Below the pieces are notes generated by a model, which saw nothing but the letters and a program-made list of their open reading frames with translations, had not been told where the DNA came from and did no database searches. This document shows, piece by piece, positions 1-21,269 of a stretch of 21,269 nucleotides of DNA. The translations under genes were made by a program, and so were the position numbers. Each line of letters begins with the position of its first letter. The stretch's first letter is position 1. The stretch comes from a virus: IMG/VR virus record IMGVR_UViG_3300036828_000111, positions 1 through 21,269 of that record; one strand, given 5' to 3'.

Positions 1-836
1 AAGCTGGTGCCGACCAGCAGCGCCCATGAGACCGCTAGACCCCATGAATTATCGTTTGCCCACGTTCCGGTTGTATCGAGAGTCAGCGTGACTGATTTAA
101 CGACATCAGTATTGGCCTCACCGGCCGCGATCGTATACTCGGCAATATATGACCTATTAGAAGTGACACCATTGCGAAACGCCACACAATACGTGCCAGC
201 CGGGGCCTTGACACCGAATTGAAGAGTGACCGTCTTGGCGGTTGCCGTTCCTGATTTGAGATCGCTGACACGGACTCCTTCTATGACCTGAGAGACTGTG
301 ACAATCTTTGTAGCGGCGGTAGCTTCGGCAGTCGTAACCGTTACTCGTATGCGATTTGGCGACCCCGCTGGCGTCAGACTGGCAACCCGCGCCAATGACA
401 ACGCACCCGTGGTGTTGGCTAGGGCGGAAAAGAACTGGTCTACGGGATAGTAACCCGTCACCGTTCCCGCTGCACTTGCATTTTCTTGGCTAATCATCAT
501 CGCGCCGTTGATGATGTAGTTCTTTTTCAGTGCATCGATGTTGGCTCGCGCCTGTGCCCGTTGATTGGCCGTTAGCGCCTGCGCCGTATCAAAACGCACG
601 CCGCCGTCAACATAGGACTTCGGAGCCGCGTCATTGGTCGCGACCGGCGGTGAACCGAACAACTTGAGTTGCGCGGTCATCGGGGTCGAGCCGTCAGTAT
701 AAACCGGCGTCGCACCGCCAGTCGCCGACTGGATGATCCACTTCTGGCCGTCCCACTTGTACTGCGGCTGGCCCGATATCGCAGGCGTAGGCCAGAGATC
801 GTTGACAGCGGGAGTGTTTGGAAAATTAAAGCCCAT
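1..836 (-). CDS. Tail fibre/appendage protein, 3'-truncated by the window edge
   Basis: The reading frame opens at ATG 836-834 and stays open to base 1, giving 278 codons with no stop, so the C-terminus lies outside the window. The start overlaps the stop of the upstream gene (TAATG), which suggests translational coupling. The first 35 residues (GFNFPNTP..., then YKWDGQKWI) are of the short fibre type that precedes a tail appendage. A KSYVDGGV segment at about 73-80 resembles the TKSYVD linkers of phage collar and fibre proteins. The segment around 106-135 (NYIINGAMMISQEN, then GYYPVDQF) is a hallmark I recall from fibre proteins of alphaproteobacterial phages, usually followed by a beta-sandwich, carbohydrate-binding-like region. 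The rest (140-278) is Thr/Val/Ala-rich and beta-like, which fits. The likely role is host-surface recognition at the tail tip. The family call is moderate; the reading frame is secure. Confidence 0.8.
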   Translation of the reverse strand, partial: MGFNFPNTPAVNDLWPTPAISGQPQYKWDGQKWIIQSATGGATPVYTDGSTPMTAQLKLFGSPPVATNDAAPKSYVDGGVRFDTAQALTANQRAQARANIDALKKNYIINGAMMISQENASAAGTVTGYYPVDQFFSALANTTGALSLARVASLTPAGSPNRIRVTVTTAEATAATKIVTVSQVIEGVRVSDLKSGTATAKTVTLQFGVKAPAGTYCVAFRNGVTSNRSYIAEYTIAAGEANTDVVKSVTLTLDTTGTWANDNSWGLAVSWALLVGTS

Positions 837-1195
837 TACACAACCTGTACCCATTGCGTCGATGTGCCGTCATTATAGCGCACAAACAACAGCCCACTGT
901 CGCTCTCGTACCAAAGCGCATTATCCGGCTGACCTGTCGGAGCGGTATCGGAGACTAAAGCCAACCCCGCGCCGGCCGCCCCCTGTGGACCCGTTGGACC
1001 CACTGGACCGGTCGGGCCTTGCAATCCAGTTGCACCGACCGGCCCTTGCAGGCCGGGCGGCCCCTGTGGTCCTGCCGGGCCTTGGTCGGGCACGCTGATG
1101 ACCTGAATCTGATCGTCCTGACTGATGATGACGTTGTCGGTCGAGGTGTCGGTTTGAACCGGATTGTCCTGAATGACTTCTGGGATATCGATCAC
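836..1195 (-). CDS. Short collagen-like tail fibre protein
   Basis: This 119-residue protein starts at GTG 1195-1193, inside a GTGA overlap with the stop of the upstream gene, and ends at the TAA that overlaps the next start. Residues 1-37 are polar and rich in Asp, Gln and Val. Residues 39-77 form an almost perfect Gly-X-Y run with many Gly-Pro triplets, expected to trimerise as a collagen-like triple helix. The C-terminal 40 residues (P...[11 protein letters not shown], then FVRYNDG...QWVQV) match a small beta motif often found after collagen-like repeats in phage fibres. It sits among receptor-binding genes, so I infer a thin trimeric fibre or a connector for the downstream appendage protein. 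It has no recognisable enzyme motif. GTG is the only start that keeps the polar N-terminus. Confidence 0.8.
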
Positions 1196-2145: not shown

Positions 2146-3185
2146 GTGTATTGCCCTCCGCTCGCCACACTGCCTGCAACGGTACCGGGCAGATAACTGA
2201 CGCCGCCACCTTGGCTGTCGATGATTCCGTTGGTCGATGCAAAGTATTTCGTCCCGGTGATATTGGCGAAGCCGGTGATGGTCGAATATTTAAATTGCAT
2301 ACTGGCCTGCGGCCCAGCCATGGCCCACCACTGCATCGTGAAAGGCCCCGTGATGTTCAGCGACGGCGAGTTGAGGATGTCATGCAGAATACGTCCACCC
2401 AACTGAGCTTCCGCATGAGCACGACCGGCGGTGCCGGTAACTCTTAGCGGCCCCTCAACGCCGATATAGCCGCCGTTGAGCGCGTACATATGATCATCGA
2501 GAACAGAGCCAAATTCGACGGAATATAGCGTGATCCCCGCGGTCCCCCATGCATAGAACCCGGTGGACGGAAACCCCGGAGTACGGCCGAGTGACGTCAC
2601 CTTAAAGCCGTTGAACTGATAGTCGCCGGTCCCGACCGCCGTGACAGCCGCTCCGCTCGGCGCGGAAATGGTGCAGAGCGAAGGCGTCGTGGTGTTGCCG
2701 ATATATTTGATGCTGCCAAAGCCGCCAATCGAACCGCAATACAGCGGCGCATATGTTCCGGGATTGACATGCACCTGCACATTGAAGCCATTCAAATTGA
2801 ACTGCACCAGCGTGTTTTGCGCCTTCTGCAGCGTCAAGAACGGTTTCGCTGCCGACAAACCATCATTGGAGTCACTGCCACTCGCTGCGTCAACGTAGTA
2901 GTCCCGCGACGCAGTCAACAGCCGCGAGTTGAAGATGCCGAAGATCGCCTTCAGCAATTGAGTCAAGTCAGCGTTGGTCGGCGCATGACAAAGCTGAGCG
3001 GCGTAATCATAATAACCGTGATCAAAGGCCCATTGGATCACGGCGACGATCTCGCGTTGGTCGTACTCAACCGATGCCGCAGGTGGGATCGATCCAGCTA
3101 GGCCCGCAGATGGGTTGCCATTGACATAAGGCGTGCCATACAGGATCGTCTCTGGCGGCAATCCATAGGGTTGATTATACAACAT
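2142..3185 (-). CDS. Tail fibre or spike with predicted parallel beta-helix
   Basis: This is a 347-residue protein. An AAGAAGGG ribosome-binding site precedes ATG 3185 by about 9 bases. Residues 1-95 look like an attachment region with a helical stretch (EIVAVIQWAFDHGYY, then NADLTQLLKAIFGIF). Residue 96 onward begins YYVDAASGSDSNDGLSAAKP, followed by a LQKAQ motif; this is the usual opening of pectate-lyase-like right-handed beta-helix repeats (DUF1565-like) in tailspikes. The rest is rich in Gly, Thr and Asn with repeated short strands, fitting a beta-helix that ends in a Gly/Ser-rich tail. It may bind or cleave host surface polysaccharide. I see no clear catalytic residue set, so binding is the safer reading. 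It is the first gene of the host-recognition module, directly after baseplate gp48. Confidence 0.8.
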   Translation of the reverse strand: MLYNQPYGLPPETILYGTPYVNGNPSAGLAGSIPPAASVEYDQREIVAVIQWAFDHGYYDYAAQLCHAPTNADLTQLLKAIFGIFNSRLLTASRDYYVDAASGSDSNDGLSAAKPFLTLQKAQNTLVQFNLNGFNVQVHVNPGTYAPLYCGSIGGFGSIKYIGNTTTPSLCTISAPSGAAVTAVGTGDYQFNGFKVTSLGRTPGFPSTGFYAWGTAGITLYSVEFGSVLDDHMYALNGGYIGVEGPLRVTGTAGRAHAEAQLGGRILHDILNSPSLNITGPFTMQWWAMAGPQASMQFKYSTITGFANITGTKYFASTNGIIDSQGGGVSYLPGTVAGSVASGGQYT

Positions 3186-5060: not shown

Positions 5061-5575
5061 TATGGCGTTATCCCTTGCCAGAGCAGTTGATACATCAGAT
5101 CAATCGCCGCGATCGGGCCACGATAGACCCGGATCACAACATCGATCTGTTGCGTGCTGACTCGCGCCGACATGATTTGGTAACGACTGGCAATCTTGCG
5201 ATCGATAAACGGTTGCAGCGCTTCCCTGATATAATTCATCACCCAAGTCTGAGTGGCCCCGAACTTTGCATCAGGACCTTCGATCGCGCTTCTTCTAAGC
5301 AGCCACAACCGCGACCCGATCGGCCAGCCGTTCCAAATCGTGTCGGCATCCATATCACCCCACCAGCCTTCGCGATTGGTTGAGTCGGGGTCCGGCAATA
5401 GGTCGGTAGCAGTTGCTAAGCCATTGGTGCCCAGCGCGACTACCATCGCGGTGGCCAGCGCCATGCTGTCATCGAGCGTGCCATCGGACAACAACTGCCA
5501 ATCAATCGTTACCGAGTACTGCGGAAAGAAGGTGTTCTGAACCGTCCTGATGTCGGGAGGGAAAACCATTGTCAT
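5060..5575 (-). CDS. Baseplate protein, Mu gp46-like
   Basis: This 171-residue protein starts at ATG 5575 in an ATGA overlap with gp45; a second ATG two codons later is an alternative. The N-terminal half carries a VALGTNGLATATDLLPD region and the strongly conserved REGWWGDMD at 68-76, which mark the Phage GP46 family (PF07409). The C-terminal half is helical and then beta, with RYQIMSARVSTQQIDVVIRVYRG resembling the gp25-like wedge fold that the family shares. In Mu it belongs to the baseplate, between spike and gp47. Spacing and order are canonical. Confidence 0.92.
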   Translation of the reverse strand: MTMVFPPDIRTVQNTFFPQYSVTIDWQLLSDGTLDDSMALATAMVVALGTNGLATATDLLPDPDSTNREGWWGDMDADTIWNGWPIGSRLWLLRRSAIEGPDAKFGATQTWVMNYIREALQPFIDRKIASRYQIMSARVSTQQIDVVIRVYRGPIAAIDLMYQLLWQGITP

Positions 5576-8941: not shown

Positions 8942-11137
8942 TTACATAGGTGGTTGTGTGGCGAGCGGGCCGTCCGCAGCCGGTTGCATCTGAGTCTGCC
9001 GGTTCACTTCGGTCTTTTTGAACAGACCATCGCCTTCAGCTCTGACCTTGGTGCCAGCCGGAGCATTGACATCGACCGCAAGCTTGCCGGTAGCGTTGAC
9101 GTTGACGCCTTGCGCCGCCTTGTCATCCAACACCTTGCGATTGCTCTCGCTGCTCTCTCCCGTGTACGGCCTGACCGTGATTCTGGGAGCAGCTTCGCTC
9201 TCTTCCGCCAGTCGTTGCGCGCTGTAACGCTCCGACATCGGCCCCAGTTCCGCGCCCTTTATCTGCGCCCTACTATTAACCTCCGCCGCTTTTATGTTGG
9301 CATCGGCTGCCCGCTGCCGGGCAGCCCAATGGCGGCCTTGCTCTCCATGGGCCGAGAACCACGCGCCCTCAACCTTGTGCATGCCGTAGTAGCTTCTGTT
9401 CGACATGTACTTGGCGAAGTTGGGATCACCCGCCATGCCCTGATCGGTCGCATAGTCGGTAATGTTTGATCCAGCCCCTACTTTTCCGAGTGCTGCTAAC
9501 CCTCTTCTCCTCTGAGCTTCTGAAAGCCTTCCGCTGATCAAGTGGTGTTTGACAGGACCATATTGTCCAGAATGCAACGCCTGATTTATCGTCATGCCGC
9601 GCATGCTAGCGTAGTTAAACAACTGTTCTAAGTTGGATTGGACACCGCCTTCATGCTGCATGGCATCAATTGCAAAGTCCCTTAGTTGAGGATTGTCGTT
9701 CAATTCCTTGATGTGTTGCTGGCGTTGCTCGGCCAAGCTCTTGCTTCCGTCCTGCGCGGTTGTTACGGCATCACCGCTGGTTTCGGCCGCGCCACGGCCG
9801 CGGGGCGCTGGCCCAGCAGCTCCTGTTGGCGCGCTGCCGCCCTGCGGCGGCGGCGTTTCAGTAGCGCCCTTGCCAGTACCGGGACCGACCGAAGAGCCGT
9901 TGGGTTTTTGAGGCTGCGGCGCGCCCTGCGTCGGCGCGCCCTGCTGCGGCGCGCCCTGCGGCGCGCGATCTCCGGCAGCCGCGCCTTGGCTCTGCGGCGC
10001 AGCACCGCCCTGCGGTGGTGGGGCCTCGGTAGCGCCCTTGCCAGTGCCCGGACCAACGGAAGAACCCTCCGGCGCTAGTCGGGTGCCTTCACCGCGCCTG
10101 AGCATGTCCAAGCCCTGTTTGCGTAAATCAGGCTGCGCCGGACGCCCGGTCTTGCCGGGGCTGGTGTAGCTGCCGCCCTTGTCTAAACCGCCGGTTCTGG
10201 CCCACCATTGCTCGATGCGCTCAAGGAGCTTGACGATCGCCTCGATGTCCTTGGCGTCCTGCGCCAGTATCTTGGCAAGACCCGGCCCGAACGCCTTGAG
10301 CAGCGACTCGCCCACCAGCTCGCTGGATTTTTTCAATTCGTCGAATGCTGTTTTGACCCTGCGTCCGTTTGCAAGCAGCTCGTCGAAGCGTTTTTTCTCC
10401 TCCGCGGTCAGATTTTCCATGTGCCGGAGCAGCGTGGTGCTCGGGTCCATGTCGGTCAGCTTTTGATAGAACTCCAGTTTTGCCTTGGCCGCATCCGCAT
10501 CTGCGGTAGTCGAATCGTGGGTACGGCGCAGCGTATCGTCATGACGATGTTTTGCGACGTTCTCTGCCAGCTCGCGAGCCTTGTTGAACTTCTCCTCGAT
10601 CGTGGCGGCATTCTGTACCTCGCGAATGCCAGCGATCATCTCCGCCTTGTGGGTGCCCGCCATGTTGATCAGCGCTTGGTATCGCTGGCTGCCGAACCGC
10701 GACAGGTCAGCCAATGCGCCGGCAAACCGGCCCGCGCTGTCTGCAGCCACGTCACTGGCGACGCCAGCCTTCTCAAGCTGATCGACAAAACTCTTCAAGC
10801 GCGCCGGTTCGATCCCGGTTAGCTTGGCCTTGTCGGCCAGATCGGCCATCTTCAGCGCCGTGGAGGTCAGCACCGTGCCAAGGCCAGCAGCCGCGACGCC
10901 GAAGGCACCGAACTTGCCGATGAAACTGAGCAGCGCCCGCTCGCCACCGGTCGACAGTTCGATCAGCTTCTTGATGCCCTCGCCGATCTCGGCCTGACTC
11001 CGTTTGAATTTCTCAAAACTTGCGGCAGCTTGGCCGGAAGTTAGCTGCGCAATATTACCTCGGAGCGCAGCCAGCGCCGCCGAAGCCTGATCGTCGAGGA
11101 CGACCCGCAGTCGCAGTTCTTGTTCTTCAGTGGCCAT
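8942..11137 (-). CDS. Tail tape measure protein with hydrolase-like C-terminal domain
   Basis: This 731-residue protein starts at ATG 11137, directly after the TAA of the chaperone's -1 frame. It opens with RLRVVLDDQASAALAALRGNI, a usual tape measure N-terminus. A hydrophobic stretch at 68-95 is the membrane-like segment seen in such proteins, and 100-310 is largely helical and coiled-coil-like. Residues 355-450 are a Pro/Gln/Gly linker with a near-identical 20-residue duplication. Residues about 484-605 form a compact region (MQHEGGVQSNLEQLFNYASMR, then SGQYGPV, and GSNITDYATDQGM) reminiscent of SleB-like or lysozyme-like wall hydrolases, with Glu496 a possible catalytic acid. The tail after 610 is hydrophilic. 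The protein sets tail length and may open peptidoglycan at DNA entry. The order after 41/42 fits Mu. Confidence 0.88.
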   Translation of the reverse strand: MATEEQELRLRVVLDDQASAALAALRGNIAQLTSGQAAASFEKFKRSQAEIGEGIKKLIELSTGGERALLSFIGKFGAFGVAAAGLGTVLTSTALKMADLADKAKLTGIEPARLKSFVDQLEKAGVASDVAADSAGRFAGALADLSRFGSQRYQALINMAGTHKAEMIAGIREVQNAATIEEKFNKARELAENVAKHRHDDTLRRTHDSTTADADAAKAKLEFYQKLTDMDPSTTLLRHMENLTAEEKKRFDELLANGRRVKTAFDELKKSSELVGESLLKAFGPGLAKILAQDAKDIEAIVKLLERIEQWWARTGGLDKGGSYTSPGKTGRPAQPDLRKQGLDMLRRGEGTRLAPEGSSVGPGTGKGATEAPPPQGGAAPQSQGAAAGDRAPQGAPQQGAPTQGAPQPQKPNGSSVGPGTGKGATETPPPQGGSAPTGAAGPAPRGRGAAETSGDAVTTAQDGSKSLAEQRQQHIKELNDNPQLRDFAIDAMQHEGGVQSNLEQLFNYASMRGMTINQALHSGQYGPVKHHLISGRLSEAQRRRGLAALGKVGAGSNITDYATDQGMAGDPNFAKYMSNRSYYGMHKVEGAWFSAHGEQGRHWAARQRAADANIKAAEVNSRAQIKGAELGPMSERYSAQRLAEESEAAPRITVRPYTGESSESNRKVLDDKAAQGVNVNATGKLAVDVNAPAGTKVRAEGDGLFKKTEVNRQTQMQPAADGPLATQPPM
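9836..10063 (-). repeat. Duplicated Pro/Gly linker unit within the tape measure gene
   Basis: Two 60 bp units (10004-10063 and 9836-9895) encode residues 359-378 and 415-434, identical except for one Ala-to-Thr change (SSVGPGTGKGATE.PPPQGG). Between them lies a QGAP triplication (about 9914-9958). The DNA copies differ at synonymous positions, so the duplication is not brand new. Confidence 0.85.
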
Positions 11138-11323
11138 TTATTCTCCAGACTCAACGGCACGCGAACGCTCTAGTTGCGCCGTTCTGTCGAGATGAAGTTG
11201 AACTTCGCTGATCGGCATCTCAAGAAAGATGCGAGGATCAAGCTTGTAGTGAAACGCCAACCGGTAGCAATCCAAGATCAGGCTGTCGTTGATGACGGCG
11301 CTCACCATCCCCGCGTGTCTGGT
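11138..11323 (-). CDS. Mu gp42-like -1 frameshift extension of the tail assembly chaperone
   Basis: Continuing in the -1 frame after the slippery site gives 61 further codons, beginning TRHAGMVSAV and ending ...RAVESGE, with the stop TAA at 11140-11138 abutting the tape measure ATG. The frame contains LAFHYKLDPRIFLEMPISEV, which has the pattern of the second tail chaperone domain (small domain with DPR.F..MP..E) known from Mu gp42-type products. There is no good ribosome-binding site in this frame; the only early ATG (11308) follows the slip. The fused product would be 219 residues: 158 from the zero frame plus 61. Tail chaperone pairs of this kind coat the tape measure during tail assembly. 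Confidence 0.85.
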   Translation of the reverse strand, partial: TRHAGMVSAVINDSLILDCYRLAFHYKLDPRIFLEMPISEVQLHLDRTAQLERSRAVESGE

Positions 11324-11796
11324 AAAAAAAATTTACGCAGACGAAGCGCGCAGCTATTCCAGTCACGCGGGTCCATCGCTTCCAATAGCGGCGGCAGGAT
11401 GCCGCACAGTGCGCCCATAATGTAAGTCATTTTGCGTTCTTCGATGATGATTTCGCCGTCCCACAACATCCGCGTCGGGTTGCCAATCCGGTTGATCTCG
11501 GCAGCGCGCGGCTCGCGAAACACCAGCGAATTGACGCTCTCACCACGATCGTTCATGATCGAACGATACAATAGCTGCACCGTGATCGGCCAAATTTCGG
11601 CGCTGTCGAAAATTTCCTTTCGAAGCTGATCAACTTCGCTGAGCACAGGTTCCGGCTTGGGAGCCTCCGACTTCATCTGCGACGCTAGCGGCGGCTGCGG
11701 CAACGCCGACTGCGGCGGCTCAAGCGGCGGCGTTTCGGGAATGATGAAGCCTTCCCTTATCCGCCCGCCGCCGTTTCCTTTTTCCAGTTCCGTCAT
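11302..11796 (-). CDS. Tail assembly chaperone, Mu gp41-like, zero-frame product
   Basis: This 164-residue protein has a GAGGTG ribosome-binding site before ATG 11796 and lies 9 bp after the tube gene. Residues 20-50 are an unusual Pro-rich segment (PETPPLEPP, then PQPPLA). The conserved part is 55-164: a RKEIFDSAEIWP turn, then VFREPRAAEINRIGNP, and TYIMGALCGILPPLLEAMDPRDW, the typical helix with an MDP.DW motif of phage tail chaperones such as Mu gp41 and P2 E. The frame ends at TGA 11304-11302, six codons after the slippery heptamer. The position between tube and tape measure is where this chaperone always lies. Confidence 0.88.
   Translation of the reverse strand: MTELEKGNGGGRIREGFIIPETPPLEPPQSALPQPPLASQMKSEAPKPEPVLSEVDQLRKEIFDSAEIWPITVQLLYRSIMNDRGESVNSLVFREPRAAEINRIGNPTRMLWDGEIIIEERKMTYIMGALCGILPPLLEAMDPRDWNSCALRLRKFFLPDTRGW
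11323..11329 (-). other. Programmed -1 ribosomal frameshift slippery heptamer
   Basis: On the minus strand the codons read AAA TTT TTT TTA CCA, so the heptamer is T TTT TTA in the X XXY YYZ register of the zero frame, the same heptamer as HIV-1 gag-pol. Slipping back one base gives ACC AGA CAC and an open frame of 61 codons to the tape measure start. A modest hairpin (GATGGT / GTCATC with two G-U pairs, 11291-11309) begins 13 bases downstream; I see no strong pseudoknot by eye. Confidence 0.8.
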
Positions 11797-11805
11797 GACT
11801 TCACC

Positions 11806-12174
11806 TCACGCGATCGATAGTTCCTGACAGGCGAGACCTTCCCAACGGACTCTGACTTGGCCGTCTCGGGTGTTGTTGTCGAAGCCCCCTTTGCAGGTGC
11901 CGCCGGTCAAGGTGTACTGCATGCCGTTGGCCAATTGCGCAACCACGGTGACGTCGGTTTGCGTCTCAAGGTCTTCCAGCAACAGGCCCGGTATCGTGGA
12001 CAGATCGCCCTCGATATACGGCACCCGTGGCAGCTCCTGATAGCCATGGACGCCGTCTTGGCCTGCTATCATCGTCCGCTCTACGGCTGATGGCGAGACG
12101 GTGAAGTTGCCGCGAAGGGCCAGTTGAGTGCCGTCCACGGTTAGAAAAGCGATGCCAGCAAAACGCTGTGCCAT
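11806..12174 (-). CDS. Tail tube protein, Mu gpM-like
   Basis: This is a 122-residue protein with an AAGGAG ribosome-binding site eight bases before ATG 12174. The sequence opens GIAFLTVDGTQLALRGNFTVSPS, followed by an RTMIAGQDGVHGYQE turn and a run of beta strands, then TLTGGTCKGG with RVRWEGLACQEL. These are the marks of the Mu-type tail tube (gpM) family. It stacks as rings under the sheath to form the DNA conduit. The length matches Mu gpM (about 118). It lies 15 bp after the sheath gene, as in Mu. Confidence 0.92.
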   Translation of the reverse strand: MAQRFAGIAFLTVDGTQLALRGNFTVSPSAVERTMIAGQDGVHGYQELPRVPYIEGDLSTIPGLLLEDLETQTDVTVVAQLANGMQYTLTGGTCKGGFDNNTRDGQVRVRWEGLACQELSIA

Positions 12175-12189: not shown

Positions 12190-13779
12190 CTATGGTTGTG
12201 CGCCGGAAGAAGCTTGGAACGGAGCCGGGGCCTGACCGATGATCGCCAGATCGATGCCGCGGTCGTACTGCAGCCGGAATTGCGCCAGCACGGCAAAAAT
12301 CCGGAGCTGGTTGATCAGATCGGGCGGATACAAAACATTGACCCGGTTCGGGTTGTTGGGGTCACGTTCGACGATTAGGTTGGCCTTGAACGCCCTGAGG
12401 TTTTCGACCAAGCCGTTCCACATATCCATCTGGTACTCGTTGACCAGCTCGGCCTTGATGATGCCCGGCGTCACGATCGCCTGACCCGGTCCGAACTTGG
12501 TGCCGTCGTCGGCCAGCTTGTGCCTCGGGAATTTGGTCGTAATGGCGTGCTTCTGGTTGCGAAGCAATTTCGCCAGCGTGGCGAGCGTGGTGACAAGCTC
12601 GTAGGCGTCATCCGCTGCGCCATAGAGATTGAGCTGATAGGTAGTCTGTTCCCGCAGGATCATCGGCTGATTGTCGCTGCCAGTCTCTTGGATGGCCAAG
12701 CCGTTGTCTGCTAGCGCATTCAGCTCCGGGAAATTGAAGCGATCGATCAGCGCGCATCCCTTGATCTGATTCAGCGACAATGTTTGCAGCGGTCGCGCCG
12801 GATCATTGATCAAAGCGCGCTGCGCCTTGGCGCAATAGGCCGCCGTGCATTCAAACGTCGGCGAAGCGGTCGTCGGCTCGAACGCCATGATTGACATCAC
12901 GCCGCTGTTGTTCGAAGCCCCGAACGTAAGCAACGCGGCATAGGTGCCGCGCTTGGCATTGAAGATGTGCCCGAACTGCTGGCGCTCCCATCCCCAGCGG
13001 CCGGTATCGGTGAAGCCATATTCCTGCTCCCACGCCAGCAGCGAGTTGCTGTCGGTATAAGGCATCGCGACGTATTCAAAATTCTTCTGCTGGATGTTGC
13101 TGATCCCATTGGTGAAGACGGGCGTGCCAACACCGCCGGTCAGCATGCCCGTGGCCGGCATCGTGATGCCGAGACCGATCGGCGTCGTCTCCGAGCCAAC
13201 TGTCCCATAATAGTTGAGCAAGACGGTGATCTCGTTGCCGTTGACGCCCTTGAACTTGGATGTCAGCGTCACGACGCCAGCCGCAGCCACCGCCGTCACC
13301 GGCAGCGCGTCCACGTTATTCTGCAACTGATAGTTGGTGATCGCCGATACGATGGCGGCCGCGATCGTGGTTGGCGTGTCCGTGGTCATGATGTTGATCG
13401 TGATCGGAGAACCAGCGATATAGAGGTTGATCGTTCCCGCCTGCGTCGGCGCAGCCGTGATCGTGATCGTGCCGGTGGCTGCGACGCCAGCGACCGGCTC
13501 GGCCACCGGCAGTGCCCAAACCTCGTTCGCAAAATTATTGGCGTAATACGCCTGAAACATTCGCGACAATTCGGAGCCTGCGCCGAAGGCCGCATCGGCT
13601 TGGGCCTGACTGCCGATCGGAATCGGCGTATCAACCACAGCGGTTCCGGCCGCAATCTTGACGCCAACCATCAACGCAATCAGGTTGATGGACGACAGAC
13701 CGGCCATCGAAGGATCGACTTCGACCCAGTACAGCGGGACTTTGATATTGGAAGGAATAGCGGCAAAGCTGATCGGCAT
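12190..13779 (-). CDS. Contractile tail sheath protein, Mu gpL-like
   Basis: This 529-residue protein has an AAGGAG site before ATG 13779. The N-terminus (MPISFAAIPSNIKVPLYWVEVDPS) matches Mu gpL-type sheaths, with GSQAQADAAFGAGSELSRMF near 57-76. Residues about 95-205 form a Thr/Ala/Ile-rich beta insertion (GTITITAAP, then NLYIAGSPITINI) of the kind found in Mu-like sheaths. The C-terminal half is conserved, with RPLQTLSLNQIKGC near 328-341 and ANLIVERDPNNPNRV close to LIVER, then QLRIFAVLAQFRLQYD at the end, which forms the inter-subunit arm. The full length is similar to Mu gpL (about 495). It proves a contractile tail. Confidence 0.95.
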   Translation of the reverse strand: MPISFAAIPSNIKVPLYWVEVDPSMAGLSSINLIALMVGVKIAAGTAVVDTPIPIGSQAQADAAFGAGSELSRMFQAYYANNFANEVWALPVAEPVAGVAATGTITITAAPTQAGTINLYIAGSPITINIMTTDTPTTIAAAIVSAITNYQLQNNVDALPVTAVAAAGVVTLTSKFKGVNGNEITVLLNYYGTVGSETTPIGLGITMPATGMLTGGVGTPVFTNGISNIQQKNFEYVAMPYTDSNSLLAWEQEYGFTDTGRWGWERQQFGHIFNAKRGTYAALLTFGASNNSGVMSIMAFEPTTASPTFECTAAYCAKAQRALINDPARPLQTLSLNQIKGCALIDRFNFPELNALADNGLAIQETGSDNQPMILREQTTYQLNLYGAADDAYELVTTLATLAKLLRNQKHAITTKFPRHKLADDGTKFGPGQAIVTPGIIKAELVNEYQMDMWNGLVENLRAFKANLIVERDPNNPNRVNVLYPPDLINQLRIFAVLAQFRLQYDRGIDLAIIGQAPAPFQASSGAQP

Positions 13780-16194: not shown

Positions 16195-17412
16195 CTAGCC
16201 AACATCATTCTGGAATTGCTCAAACAGACCGCGCAGCTCAAGCGTCGGTCCGCGCGAGCCGTCGCTCAGCAGCGGAACAGCCAGAAAATTTTCACGATCG
16301 ATAGTCCAGCCCTTGAGCGTCAGTTGTTTTCCCGGCTCGCCCGGCAAACCGCGCTCGCCACGCTCACCTTTCTCGCCGGACACGCCGCGCTGGCCTTGTC
16401 TCGCAATCAGTTGCCAACCCTCACCGGGACACGGACCGGGAACATCATGACGTGCGATAAAGCTGCCGCCATTGACGGCAACGACATCAAGCCGCTGATA
16501 CTTCATGTCGGGATCATACGTGCCGCGCACCTGCAACACGTCAGCGTCTCGACCGCCTGACGCGATGCAAATCCAATCCTCAGCTTTATCCGGTCGCTGA
16601 CTGGTGTCCTTGAGCGCCTGATAGGTGCCGCGATCATAGCGGACCACGTCACCGTCATAGTGCACGATATCCGGCTGCCAGTGCTTCACTCGCGGCAACT
16701 TGCCGGGTGCCCCATCGGCCCCGCGCTCGCCCTGCGCTCCAGACGCTCCGGCGGAGCCCACTGGCCCTGTTTCGCCGGGATCGCCTCTCGGCCCCACATC
16801 CCCCTTGATGCCCGGCTCGCCGCGTTCGCCAGAGGCTCCTGCCATGCCTCTGAGACCAGCCGGTCCAGTTGGACCTTCCGGGCCAATAAGACTTAGACCG
16901 TCTCGGCCCTCCTTGCCCGCTTGACCTTGCGGACCGCGCTGGCCTTGCGGCCCCGTTTCACCGCGCTCGCCTTTGAGACTTTCGCCACGCGGACCTTGCG
17001 GCCCGACTTTGCCTTCGATGCCTTCCTTGCCTTCATGTCCAATTTCTCCCTGTGGCCCCGGTGGTCCTTGTAGACCAATCTCGCCGCGTTCGCCAACCGG
17101 CCCGGCTTCACCATCACGGCCGGGCGCGCCATCGCGCACCAGCGCCAATCGCTCGGTCACCATGGTGGTAAAATCCAGCAACTTCTGCTGCAACAGGCTT
17201 TCAAGCTTGCGCTCCAGCTCGATCACCCGCGTGCGAAGCTCGGCGATCGACTGCGCCGCCTGCGCCTCGATCAGCGCACGTTCACGCTGCCACGAGGCGC
17301 GTTCCTGCGCCAGCGTATCGCCCAATACCTCACGCCAAGCGTCAATTAAGACGTCGGTTGATTCGGGCGGCAGCATCAAAGATTCGTCGGACTTCCCGTT
17401 GGACATCGTCAT
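16195..17412 (-). CDS. Collagen-like phage protein with coiled coil and CBM5/12-like segments
   Basis: This 405-residue protein starts at ATG 17412 with an AAGGTG site seven bases upstream, so the 71 bp overlap with the portal 3' end is real. Residues 25-90 form a charged, heptad-like coiled coil (QERASWQRERALIEAQAAQ, then VIELERKLESLLQQKL). Residues about 95-238 are a long Gly-X-Y run of roughly 45 triplets, with breaks at ESLKGER and LSLIG. Two short modules follow: HWQPDIVHYDGDVVRYDRGTY near 244-264 and GTYDPDMKYQRLDVVAVNGGSF near 297-318. Both have the aromatic/GDVV-type pattern of chitin-binding CBM5/12 modules. A second collagen run lies at about 340-361. It probably forms a trimeric head or neck fibre that binds host or environmental surface sugars. 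I know of no fixed name for it. Confidence 0.8.
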   Translation of the reverse strand: MTMSNGKSDESLMLPPESTDVLIDAWREVLGDTLAQERASWQRERALIEAQAAQSIAELRTRVIELERKLESLLQQKLLDFTTMVTERLALVRDGAPGRDGEAGPVGERGEIGLQGPPGPQGEIGHEGKEGIEGKVGPQGPRGESLKGERGETGPQGQRGPQGQAGKEGRDGLSLIGPEGPTGPAGLRGMAGASGERGEPGIKGDVGPRGDPGETGPVGSAGASGAQGERGADGAPGKLPRVKHWQPDIVHYDGDVVRYDRGTYQALKDTSQRPDKAEDWICIASGGRDADVLQVRGTYDPDMKYQRLDVVAVNGGSFIARHDVPGPCPGEGWQLIARQGQRGVSGEKGERGERGLPGEPGKQLTLKGWTIDRENFLAVPLLSDGSRGPTLELRGLFEQFQNDVG

Positions 17413-19169: not shown

Positions 19170-21269
19170 TTACCATGTCACGTTCTGGGTCCACGCCAAC
19201 ATGCCAGTGCGCCTGAAGGCCCAATTGACCGGGAACACCATCCTGAGTGCGAGCGAGTCTGTTTGAAACAGCGAACGCTGTGGCGACGCAACCACACCGG
19301 GAGAACCGCTCACTAAATCTAAGGGTGTAGTGTCCTCCATATGCAACGTGGCCTGATCGCTGATTTCAAACCGCACATTGTCACCTTGCATGGCGACAAA
19401 ATCCGCCGCGTCGGTCAGGATCACGGTTTTCGCCGGGACCGTAGCCGAATCGATGATCGGCACATTGTTCAACGTGCCACGACCGATCTCATCCTTGAAC
19501 GGGAAGATACCGGTATTGGGCGCGCTGGCCAGTGATGCCGACAGCGCATCGGATGGATTCATCAGCCATACCGGTGAGCGGATATTGCCGTAAGTCGCGG
19601 CAACCAGCGCACTCGTCAACTGCTTGATGTCGCCAATCACGGCGGCAATGCCGCCGCCTGCCGTTGCCACCAACGCCGATACACCGTTGAGAATGCCAGC
19701 AGGACGGATCAGTGTTGCCGGATTGGTGTCGAGCAGAACCGAATCCAGCGAGATCGCGGTGTCTTGCTGAATGGCTTCCCGCAGCACGCCCTCGATTGCG
19801 GGAATGGAATGATCGTTCATTTCCCTTGACCAAGTCGTGATTACCGCCATCTTCTTCGGCGTGAAGGTCTGGCTGGTGAACGCGCCTTGGCGCACCGGGA
19901 TAGCCATGCCTTCACCGACGAACGATCCGGCGATCGTTGGTGTACGCGAACGGCTTGGAAGCAGAATCTTTCCAGCCTGCCCAAAGCTGAGCGAAAGGCC
20001 CTTGCCGGAAAGTCTTGGGTAGATACTTTGCGCCATCAGCAGGCCCAGCAGATCGGCATAAATCTGATGAACCAGTTCCTGCGCCCAGCCCGCTACCGTG
20101 GTTAACGCGGGCGCAGACGGCGCACGCATCACCCAGTCAAGCACGACCTTGTGCTCTTCATCATCACCATAGATGCGAACCCGCTCAAGATCAGGCATCG
20201 TGCCGCGAATTTTTGACATGCCGACACAGACGCCGGCATGCACAAGATAATCCAACGGCAACCAGTCCTTTTTCGAGTGCTTGATAATCATCGGCGCGGC
20301 GACATTAGCCGTGCTGGTCATCAGCGATGCCGGAACCATCGAACGGCGATGCGTTCCGACTGCTTGCTCTTTTTCCACATCAGCGGCCTGCAACGCTTCG
20401 GTTTCGGTAAGCGCCGCGTGCTGATTGCGAAGCTGCCTGACCTGTGCGTTCAGAAGTGTGGTCTTTTCCAGATCAGCGTCGCTGACGTTGCTATCGTCCT
20501 GCTTGCCGACATGGGCGTCGAGTTCTTCCAGCTTGTTGGCGATCTGCTGCTGCAGATCGAGAATACGTTGTGAAAGAGAAGACATCTTACTGTCCTTCCC
20601 ATTACGAGACGTGTCGCCATGCTTGGCAGTGAAATCCCGCCGCTTGGTGTCAGCCTGTTTGCCGTGCTTGGCGAAGATGACATCGATGGTGGCGGGACTG
20701 ATCCCCAACGATTTGGCAACCGCGAGGGCATTCGGATTCGCCGGTACGCTGACCAGCGAGGTTTCGATCAATTCCTGTTTGACATATTTCGAACAAGGCC
20801 AGCCGCCGGTCGCCGACTTCAGCGGTTCGCTTTCAATCGGAGAAAAACCGACCGAAACTGCCTGTAGAATACCTTGCTCGACCAGACTGAGAATTTCATT
20901 GATCCGCTCTGACGTGCCCTTCTCGGCCAGCTTCAAATGTCCACGCAGTGACCCCTTCTCAACTCGAAGATTGTGCCACTTGCCGATCGGAAAATTGCTA
21001 TTGTGGTTAAACAACGCGATCGGATTTTTTTGAAAATTGTCGAGTACCCATCCTGCACTCGTGATGATATCACCCATACGATCAATCGTCTCGTCGCTTA
21101 ACACGAACTCCATGCCGATCGCATCGCCGCTGTGAGTCTTGCGAATAATCGCCTTGCGAACTGGCGCACGCGCCGCGCGTTCCTGCTGCGCGTCGTCCCA
21201 CATCATTTCACAGGAATCTTCATCCATGCTATCAAGACAGCGCTCAATAAAATCATCATGAGATTCGTC
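19170..21269 (-). CDS. Prohead protease-scaffold-major capsid fusion, HK97 type, 5'-truncated
   Basis: The frame is open from the right edge (codon 21269-21267) to TAA before 19170, giving 699 codons in the window. The first 14 (DESHDDFIERCLDS) match the N-terminus of many phage proteases (ES.DDF..RC), so the true start is outside the window and ATG 21227 is internal. Counting from that ATG, residues 25-170 are the S78 protease: ALFNHN with His75, LQAVSVGF with Ser125, and ETSLVSVPANPNAL. Residues 215-290 form a coiled-coil scaffold (delta) domain (LSQRILDLQQQIANKLEELD). Residues 297-685 are the HK97-fold capsid protein, with SVLLDTNPATLIRPAGIL and VPIIDSATVPAKTVILTDAADF. A strong internal ribosome-binding site before Met215 may also yield scaffold-capsid alone. 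The capsid is the head shell subunit. Confidence 0.92.
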   Translation of the reverse strand, partial: DESHDDFIERCLDSMDEDSCEMMWDDAQQERAARAPVRKAIIRKTHSGDAIGMEFVLSDETIDRMGDIITSAGWVLDNFQKNPIALFNHNSNFPIGKWHNLRVEKGSLRGHLKLAEKGTSERINEILSLVEQGILQAVSVGFSPIESEPLKSATGGWPCSKYVKQELIETSLVSVPANPNALAVAKSLGISPATIDVIFAKHGKQADTKRRDFTAKHGDTSRNGKDSKMSSLSQRILDLQQQIANKLEELDAHVGKQDDSNVSDADLEKTTLLNAQVRQLRNQHAALTETEALQAADVEKEQAVGTHRRSMVPASLMTSTANVAAPMIIKHSKKDWLPLDYLVHAGVCVGMSKIRGTMPDLERVRIYGDDEEHKVVLDWVMRAPSAPALTTVAGWAQELVHQIYADLLGLLMAQSIYPRLSGKGLSLSFGQAGKILLPSRSRTPTIAGSFVGEGMAIPVRQGAFTSQTFTPKKMAVITTWSREMNDHSIPAIEGVLREAIQQDTAISLDSVLLDTNPATLIRPAGILNGVSALVATAGGGIAAVIGDIKQLTSALVAATYGNIRSPVWLMNPSDALSASLASAPNTGIFPFKDEIGRGTLNNVPIIDSATVPAKTVILTDAADFVAMQGDNVRFEISDQATLHMEDTTPLDLVSGSPGVVASPQRSLFQTDSLALRMVFPVNWAFRRTGMLAWTQNVTW
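20586..20599 (-). promoter_or_regulatory. Internal ribosome-binding site inside the protease-capsid gene
   Basis: GGAAGGA followed by seven bases and then ATG (20585-20583) stands at the protease-scaffold junction, in frame with the downstream scaffold and capsid. Starting there would give a 471-residue scaffold-capsid protein without protease, similar in principle to lambda C/Nu3. Confidence 0.65.

Follow-up and report, generated by a model that had tools for sequence, protein, structure and literature searches.

A conserved slippery heptamer and a probable programmed -1 frameshift in the tail assembly chaperone gene of a phage with Mu-type tail genes

The window analysed here (a whole virus record of 21,269 bases, 58% GC) contains a tail assembly chaperone gene in which the heptamer T TTT TTA lies a few codons before the stop, and the question is whether some ribosomes slip at this heptamer into the -1 frame and produce a second, longer chaperone from the same start. 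The initial annotation had claimed a programmed -1 frameshift of this kind, and the comparative evidence given below bears it out. The features concerned are as follows.

12190..13779, minus strand: contractile tail sheath of the Mu gpL type (phrog_165, 1e-150)
11806..12174, minus strand: tail tube protein (PF10618, 5.1e-30; Shine-Dalgarno -8.7)
11302..11796, minus strand: tail assembly chaperone ORF, the G-like short product, 164 aa (PF10109 Phage_TAC_7 / phrog_166)
11323..11329, minus strand: slippery heptamer T TTT TTA in X XXY YYZ register, codons 156-158
11302..11322, minus strand: dual-coded overlap from the heptamer to the zero-frame TGA, 7 codons including the stop
11138..11323, minus strand: -1 frame extension (T/E'-like domain), 61 codons and TAA
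8942..11137, minus strand: tape measure gene, 731 aa, with its ATG directly 3' of the TAA of the extension

The chaperone gene (11796-11302) was found between the tail tube gene (12174-11806) and the tape measure gene (from 11137). By tblastn the sheath matched several phages, among them Mu, ST64B and phiNP. Baseplate genes of Mu type, from the Mu gp45, gp44/GpP-like and Baseplate_J families, followed 3' of the tape measure gene. The tape measure protein was assigned mainly from position and length, its match to phrog_14441 being weak (0.012); its start has a Shine-Dalgarno duplex of -6.4 kcal/mol. In the head region, a single ORF of 685 aa (19170-21227, minus strand) joins the prohead protease (Peptidase_S78, 4.8e-9) to the major capsid protein (Phage_capsid, 1.2e-12). 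Also among the head genes, a 405-aa collagen-repeat protein (PF01391, 4.9e-26) is encoded at 16195-17412 on the minus strand, immediately 3' of the portal gene and sharing about 70 bases with its 3' end. A second short collagen-like protein, below the Pfam cut-off, was detected near the tail-fibre end (836-1195, minus strand).

The chaperone of the window matched PF10109 at 3.5e-4 and 21 bits, below the curated cut-off of 25 bits; all 15 aligned members of the chaperone family matched PF10109, the best at 2.1e-11. By profile comparison, the chaperone belongs to PF10109 (Phage_TAC_7). Scanning viral contigs with the chaperone revealed 73 relatives of 43-85% identity, and named phages gave no significant match in direct tblastn searches with the chaperone, the consensus extension or the tape measure protein. 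Relatives of the chaperone were also present in three Bradyrhizobium genome contigs, which suggests a soil alphaproteobacterium as host of the phage.

On the minus strand, the zero frame of the chaperone ends with CTG CGT AAA TTT TTT TTA CCA GAC ACG CGG GGA TGG TGA. The heptamer at 11329-11323 is composed of the third base of codon 156 and codons 157-158, which agrees with the register claimed earlier for the 164-residue chaperone. After a -1 slip, 61 open codons lead to the TAA at 11140-11138, abutting the tape measure ATG at 11137, and the long product would comprise 158 + 61 = 219 residues; the initial annotation had all these numbers right. The run of eight A on the plus strand behind the heptamer is the longest homopolymer in the window, and the leucine codon TTA is rare there (20 of 558). 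Elsewhere on the minus strand TTTTTTA occurs in only one place, between genes at 19132-19126.

So that the test would not be circular, a protein motif instead of the heptamer was used to find the site in every locus that either scan, with the chaperone or with the extension, had produced. T TTT TTN in register was present in 89 of 91 distinct contexts: T TTT TTA in 36, T TTT TTT in 38, T TTT TTC in 14 and T TTT TTG in one. Related sequences are taken as separate in these counts, hence no formal probability is attached to them. The initial annotation had proposed checking this conservation, and only two contexts have lost the heptamer. Considering this conservation together with the homopolymer length and the rarity of TTA in the window, the heptamer is more than a chance occurrence.

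Two alternative positions of the heptamer were observed, AAR TTT TTT TTA or, one codon earlier, NNT TTT TTY. With A or G as the last base of the codon that precedes Phe-Phe, TTA or TTG follows as third codon in 37 of 38 cases; in sites whose third codon cannot complete the heptamer, the preceding codon has a final T, and 52 of 54 such sites carry the heptamer in this way. The residue before Phe-Phe varies in the NNT TTT TTY form (G, R, N, D, S, A or T), and TTT accounts for only about 33% of the Phe codons in these genomes. This codon pattern shows selection acting on the nucleotides rather than on the amino acids. In a set of 31 distinct close relatives, synonymous variation averaged 0.45 per codon upstream and was exactly 0 at the three heptamer codons (F-F-L). 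In the dual-coded overlap, five codons could be measured; four of them gave 0.06-0.19 and the first (Pro) gave 0.45, the upstream value.

The two contexts without a heptamer are L040/L115 (one contig, AAG TTT TTT ATA, L040 near 5004) and L154 (CGT TGT TTT CTT, 3000-3050), and the extension is still open in both. Each keeps only T TTT, available to a single P-site tRNA, and they may represent weak sites or decaying copies. The site may have moved by one codon in the evolution of the family, placing the heptamer on F2-L or on F1-F2 through compensatory substitutions on both sides, with no change in shift frame or extension, and the two heptamer-less relatives may use single-tRNA slipping on T TTT; we give this history an even chance.

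The same fusion could be obtained if RNA polymerase slipped on the T run and added a base to some transcripts, which would then be translated in the ordinary way. In the window the run is eight T long, close to the length where transcriptional slippage in bacteria becomes appreciable. However, many relatives have just T6 or T7, and conservation attaches to the codon register of T TTT TTN. A T6 flush with the codons, equally tolerable to polymerase slippage, was seen in one of the 91 contexts only (L040). Given this retained register and the sufficiency of T6 runs, we consider polymerase slippage very unlikely.

The split frame could also have come from a homopolymer sequencing or assembly error in a gene that is really one long ORF. 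Homopolymers are indeed error prone, but the same split frame occurs in 73 independent contigs and in the three Bradyrhizobium genome contigs, with runs of T6, T7 or T8, with varied codons and with the zero-frame stop always 8-17 codons past the heptamer. Through the number of independent records this explanation is excluded, its remaining probability being negligible.

Downstream of the heptamer, the -1 frame was open for 140-176 nt beyond the zero-frame stop in every relative with enough sequence, and the +1 frame was closed before the tape measure gene in most relatives, the window included. The median pN/pS of the extension was 0.20 in the -1 frame versus 1.38 and 2.04 in the other two frames, and codon position 3 of the extension frame took more changes than either of the other two positions. 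The residues D-C-Y-R-L-A, P, F-L, H and T were invariant among 19 members. Judged by these substitution patterns, the extension is evolving as a protein in the -1 frame. It matched no Pfam family, even with the 19 members, and among PHROGs only phrog_32181 at about 0.015.

A scan with the extension alone revealed 341 related places, of which the best 80 were kept and read. In all but two of these 80, an in-register heptamer was located 45-60 nt 5' of the DCYRLA motif, within a chaperone-like long zero frame with a stop 8-17 codons after the heptamer. No stand-alone or in-frame-fused extension gene was found among the best 80 of the 341 matches. Relatives with the two domains as separate genes, an arrangement that the initial annotation had named as counter-evidence, were not found.

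Alternatively, the extension might be a separate small gene with its own or a coupled start, as the ATG overlapping the TGA of the chaperone in the window could indicate. The window has ATG GTG at this overlap, and ATG or GTG was found there in most close relatives. The overlap starts are not conserved, however: three relatives (L066, L067 and L071) lack ATG, GTG and TTG alike over the stretch concerned, and in many others TTG is the sole candidate. The Shine-Dalgarno energy was +0.4 kcal/mol at the window ATG versus -6 to -10 for the neighbouring genes, and a separate gene leaves the selection on the heptamer unexplained. Because the overlap starts are unconserved, absent in three relatives and, in the window, without Shine-Dalgarno pairing, we regard a separate start as still less probable than polymerase slippage.

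The reading we prefer, with a probability of roughly 94%, is that programmed -1 ribosomal frameshifting at T TTT TTA determines how much of each of two tail-assembly chaperones is made relative to the other. The majority of ribosomes would read the 164-aa chaperone through to its TGA. A minority would slip one base back with tRNA-Phe and tRNA-Leu on TTT TTA; both tRNAs would pair anew with TTT TTT, and translation of 61 more codons would give the 219-aa chaperone-extension fusion. The sequence, the register, the conservation and the protein-level selection on the extension are observations; the slip itself, its efficiency and the part played in assembly are what we infer.

Stimulatory signals around the site were also searched for. 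Conserved nested RNA structure 3' of the site was not supported (mean z about -0.1 to -0.5) in a test that covered nested folds; structure 5' of the site received no support, and no Rfam match was detected. A Shine-Dalgarno-like stimulator upstream was not found, the signal being weaker than at control positions. These negative results, and the two contexts that lost the heptamer but kept the extension open, count against the frameshift reading.

For the role of the two products in tail assembly, lambda gpG/gpGT and P2 gpE/gpE+E' serve as the analogy. The N-terminal part shared by both products would coat the tape measure protein, and the extension would recruit tail tube subunits onto it; the product ratio would thus matter for tail building. 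Lambda G and GT, as predicted for the two products here, share one start, arise through a -1 frameshift and are encoded just 5' of the tape measure gene. Lambda is unlike the window phage in being a siphophage of unrelated sequence, and its slippery site differs from T TTT TTA. The fixed ratio of G to GT is obtained by -1 frameshifting, a mechanism conserved among tailed phages (PMC5009743).

The closest annotated system is E / E+E' of P2 (NC_001895), whose annotation places the -1 site at T TTT TTG (GGT TTT TTG), where the window phage has T TTT TTA. Common to both are a contractile tail, a chaperone followed by a -1 slip at a T-run heptamer (predicted here), a zero-frame stop few codons later and a short extension beside the tape measure gene. 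The tape measure gene overlaps E' in P2 whereas it abuts the extension in the window phage, and the profile comparison of the extension with P2 E' was not significant (E 0.44, about 20 test frames).

Mu gene 41 also belongs to PF10109, the family that covers E, 41 and 14, and like the window chaperone it has Mu-type sheath and tube neighbours. However, Mu is reported to use a -2 shift (PMC5009743, PMC2628397), which leads into the +1 frame, whereas the conserved downstream frame of the window phage is -1. A frameshift of the Mu gp41 -2 type was rejected on this ground and because the +1 frame is closed in most relatives. Since Mu itself shifts -2, P2 E/E' is the closer model. The initial annotation had described the extension as gp42-like and the pair as of gp41/42 type; the likeness did not hold and the name is wrong, as gp42 of Mu is the tape measure protein (NC_000929) and Mu shifts -2. 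The extension profile gave a marginal match to Mu that was not significant (E 0.012, about 20 test frames).

With the extension profile we found unannotated -1 frames in Pseudomonas phage PG1 (1e-8, about 20 test frames), beside T TTT TTG, and in Burkholderia phage BgVeeders33 (1e-5, about 20 test frames), beside T TTT TTC. In both, as in the window phage, no stop interrupts the -1 frame before the tape measure gene is reached, and the extensions have diverged; these matches tie the extension family of the window to the wider Mu-tail group. Two further observations concern ST64B (L079), where an open -1 frame behind a T-run reaches the tape measure gene at 5080-5260, and phiNP (L077), where one behind T TTT TTG does so at 5110-5300. 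Neither frame is annotated in its record, and both phages probably have the same kind of frameshift.

The extension was not annotated as a gene in any of the five Mu-tail-type records inspected, which marks an annotation blind spot; the earlier expectation that standard gene callers would miss it holds. The frameshift is a strongly conserved, previously unannotated case, ordinary in kind, of a known tailed-phage mechanism. It offers a clean comparative case of a slippery site held at the nucleotide level while the surrounding protein changes, and it adds more than 300 candidate extension sequences and one well-supported -1 frameshift to this blind spot.
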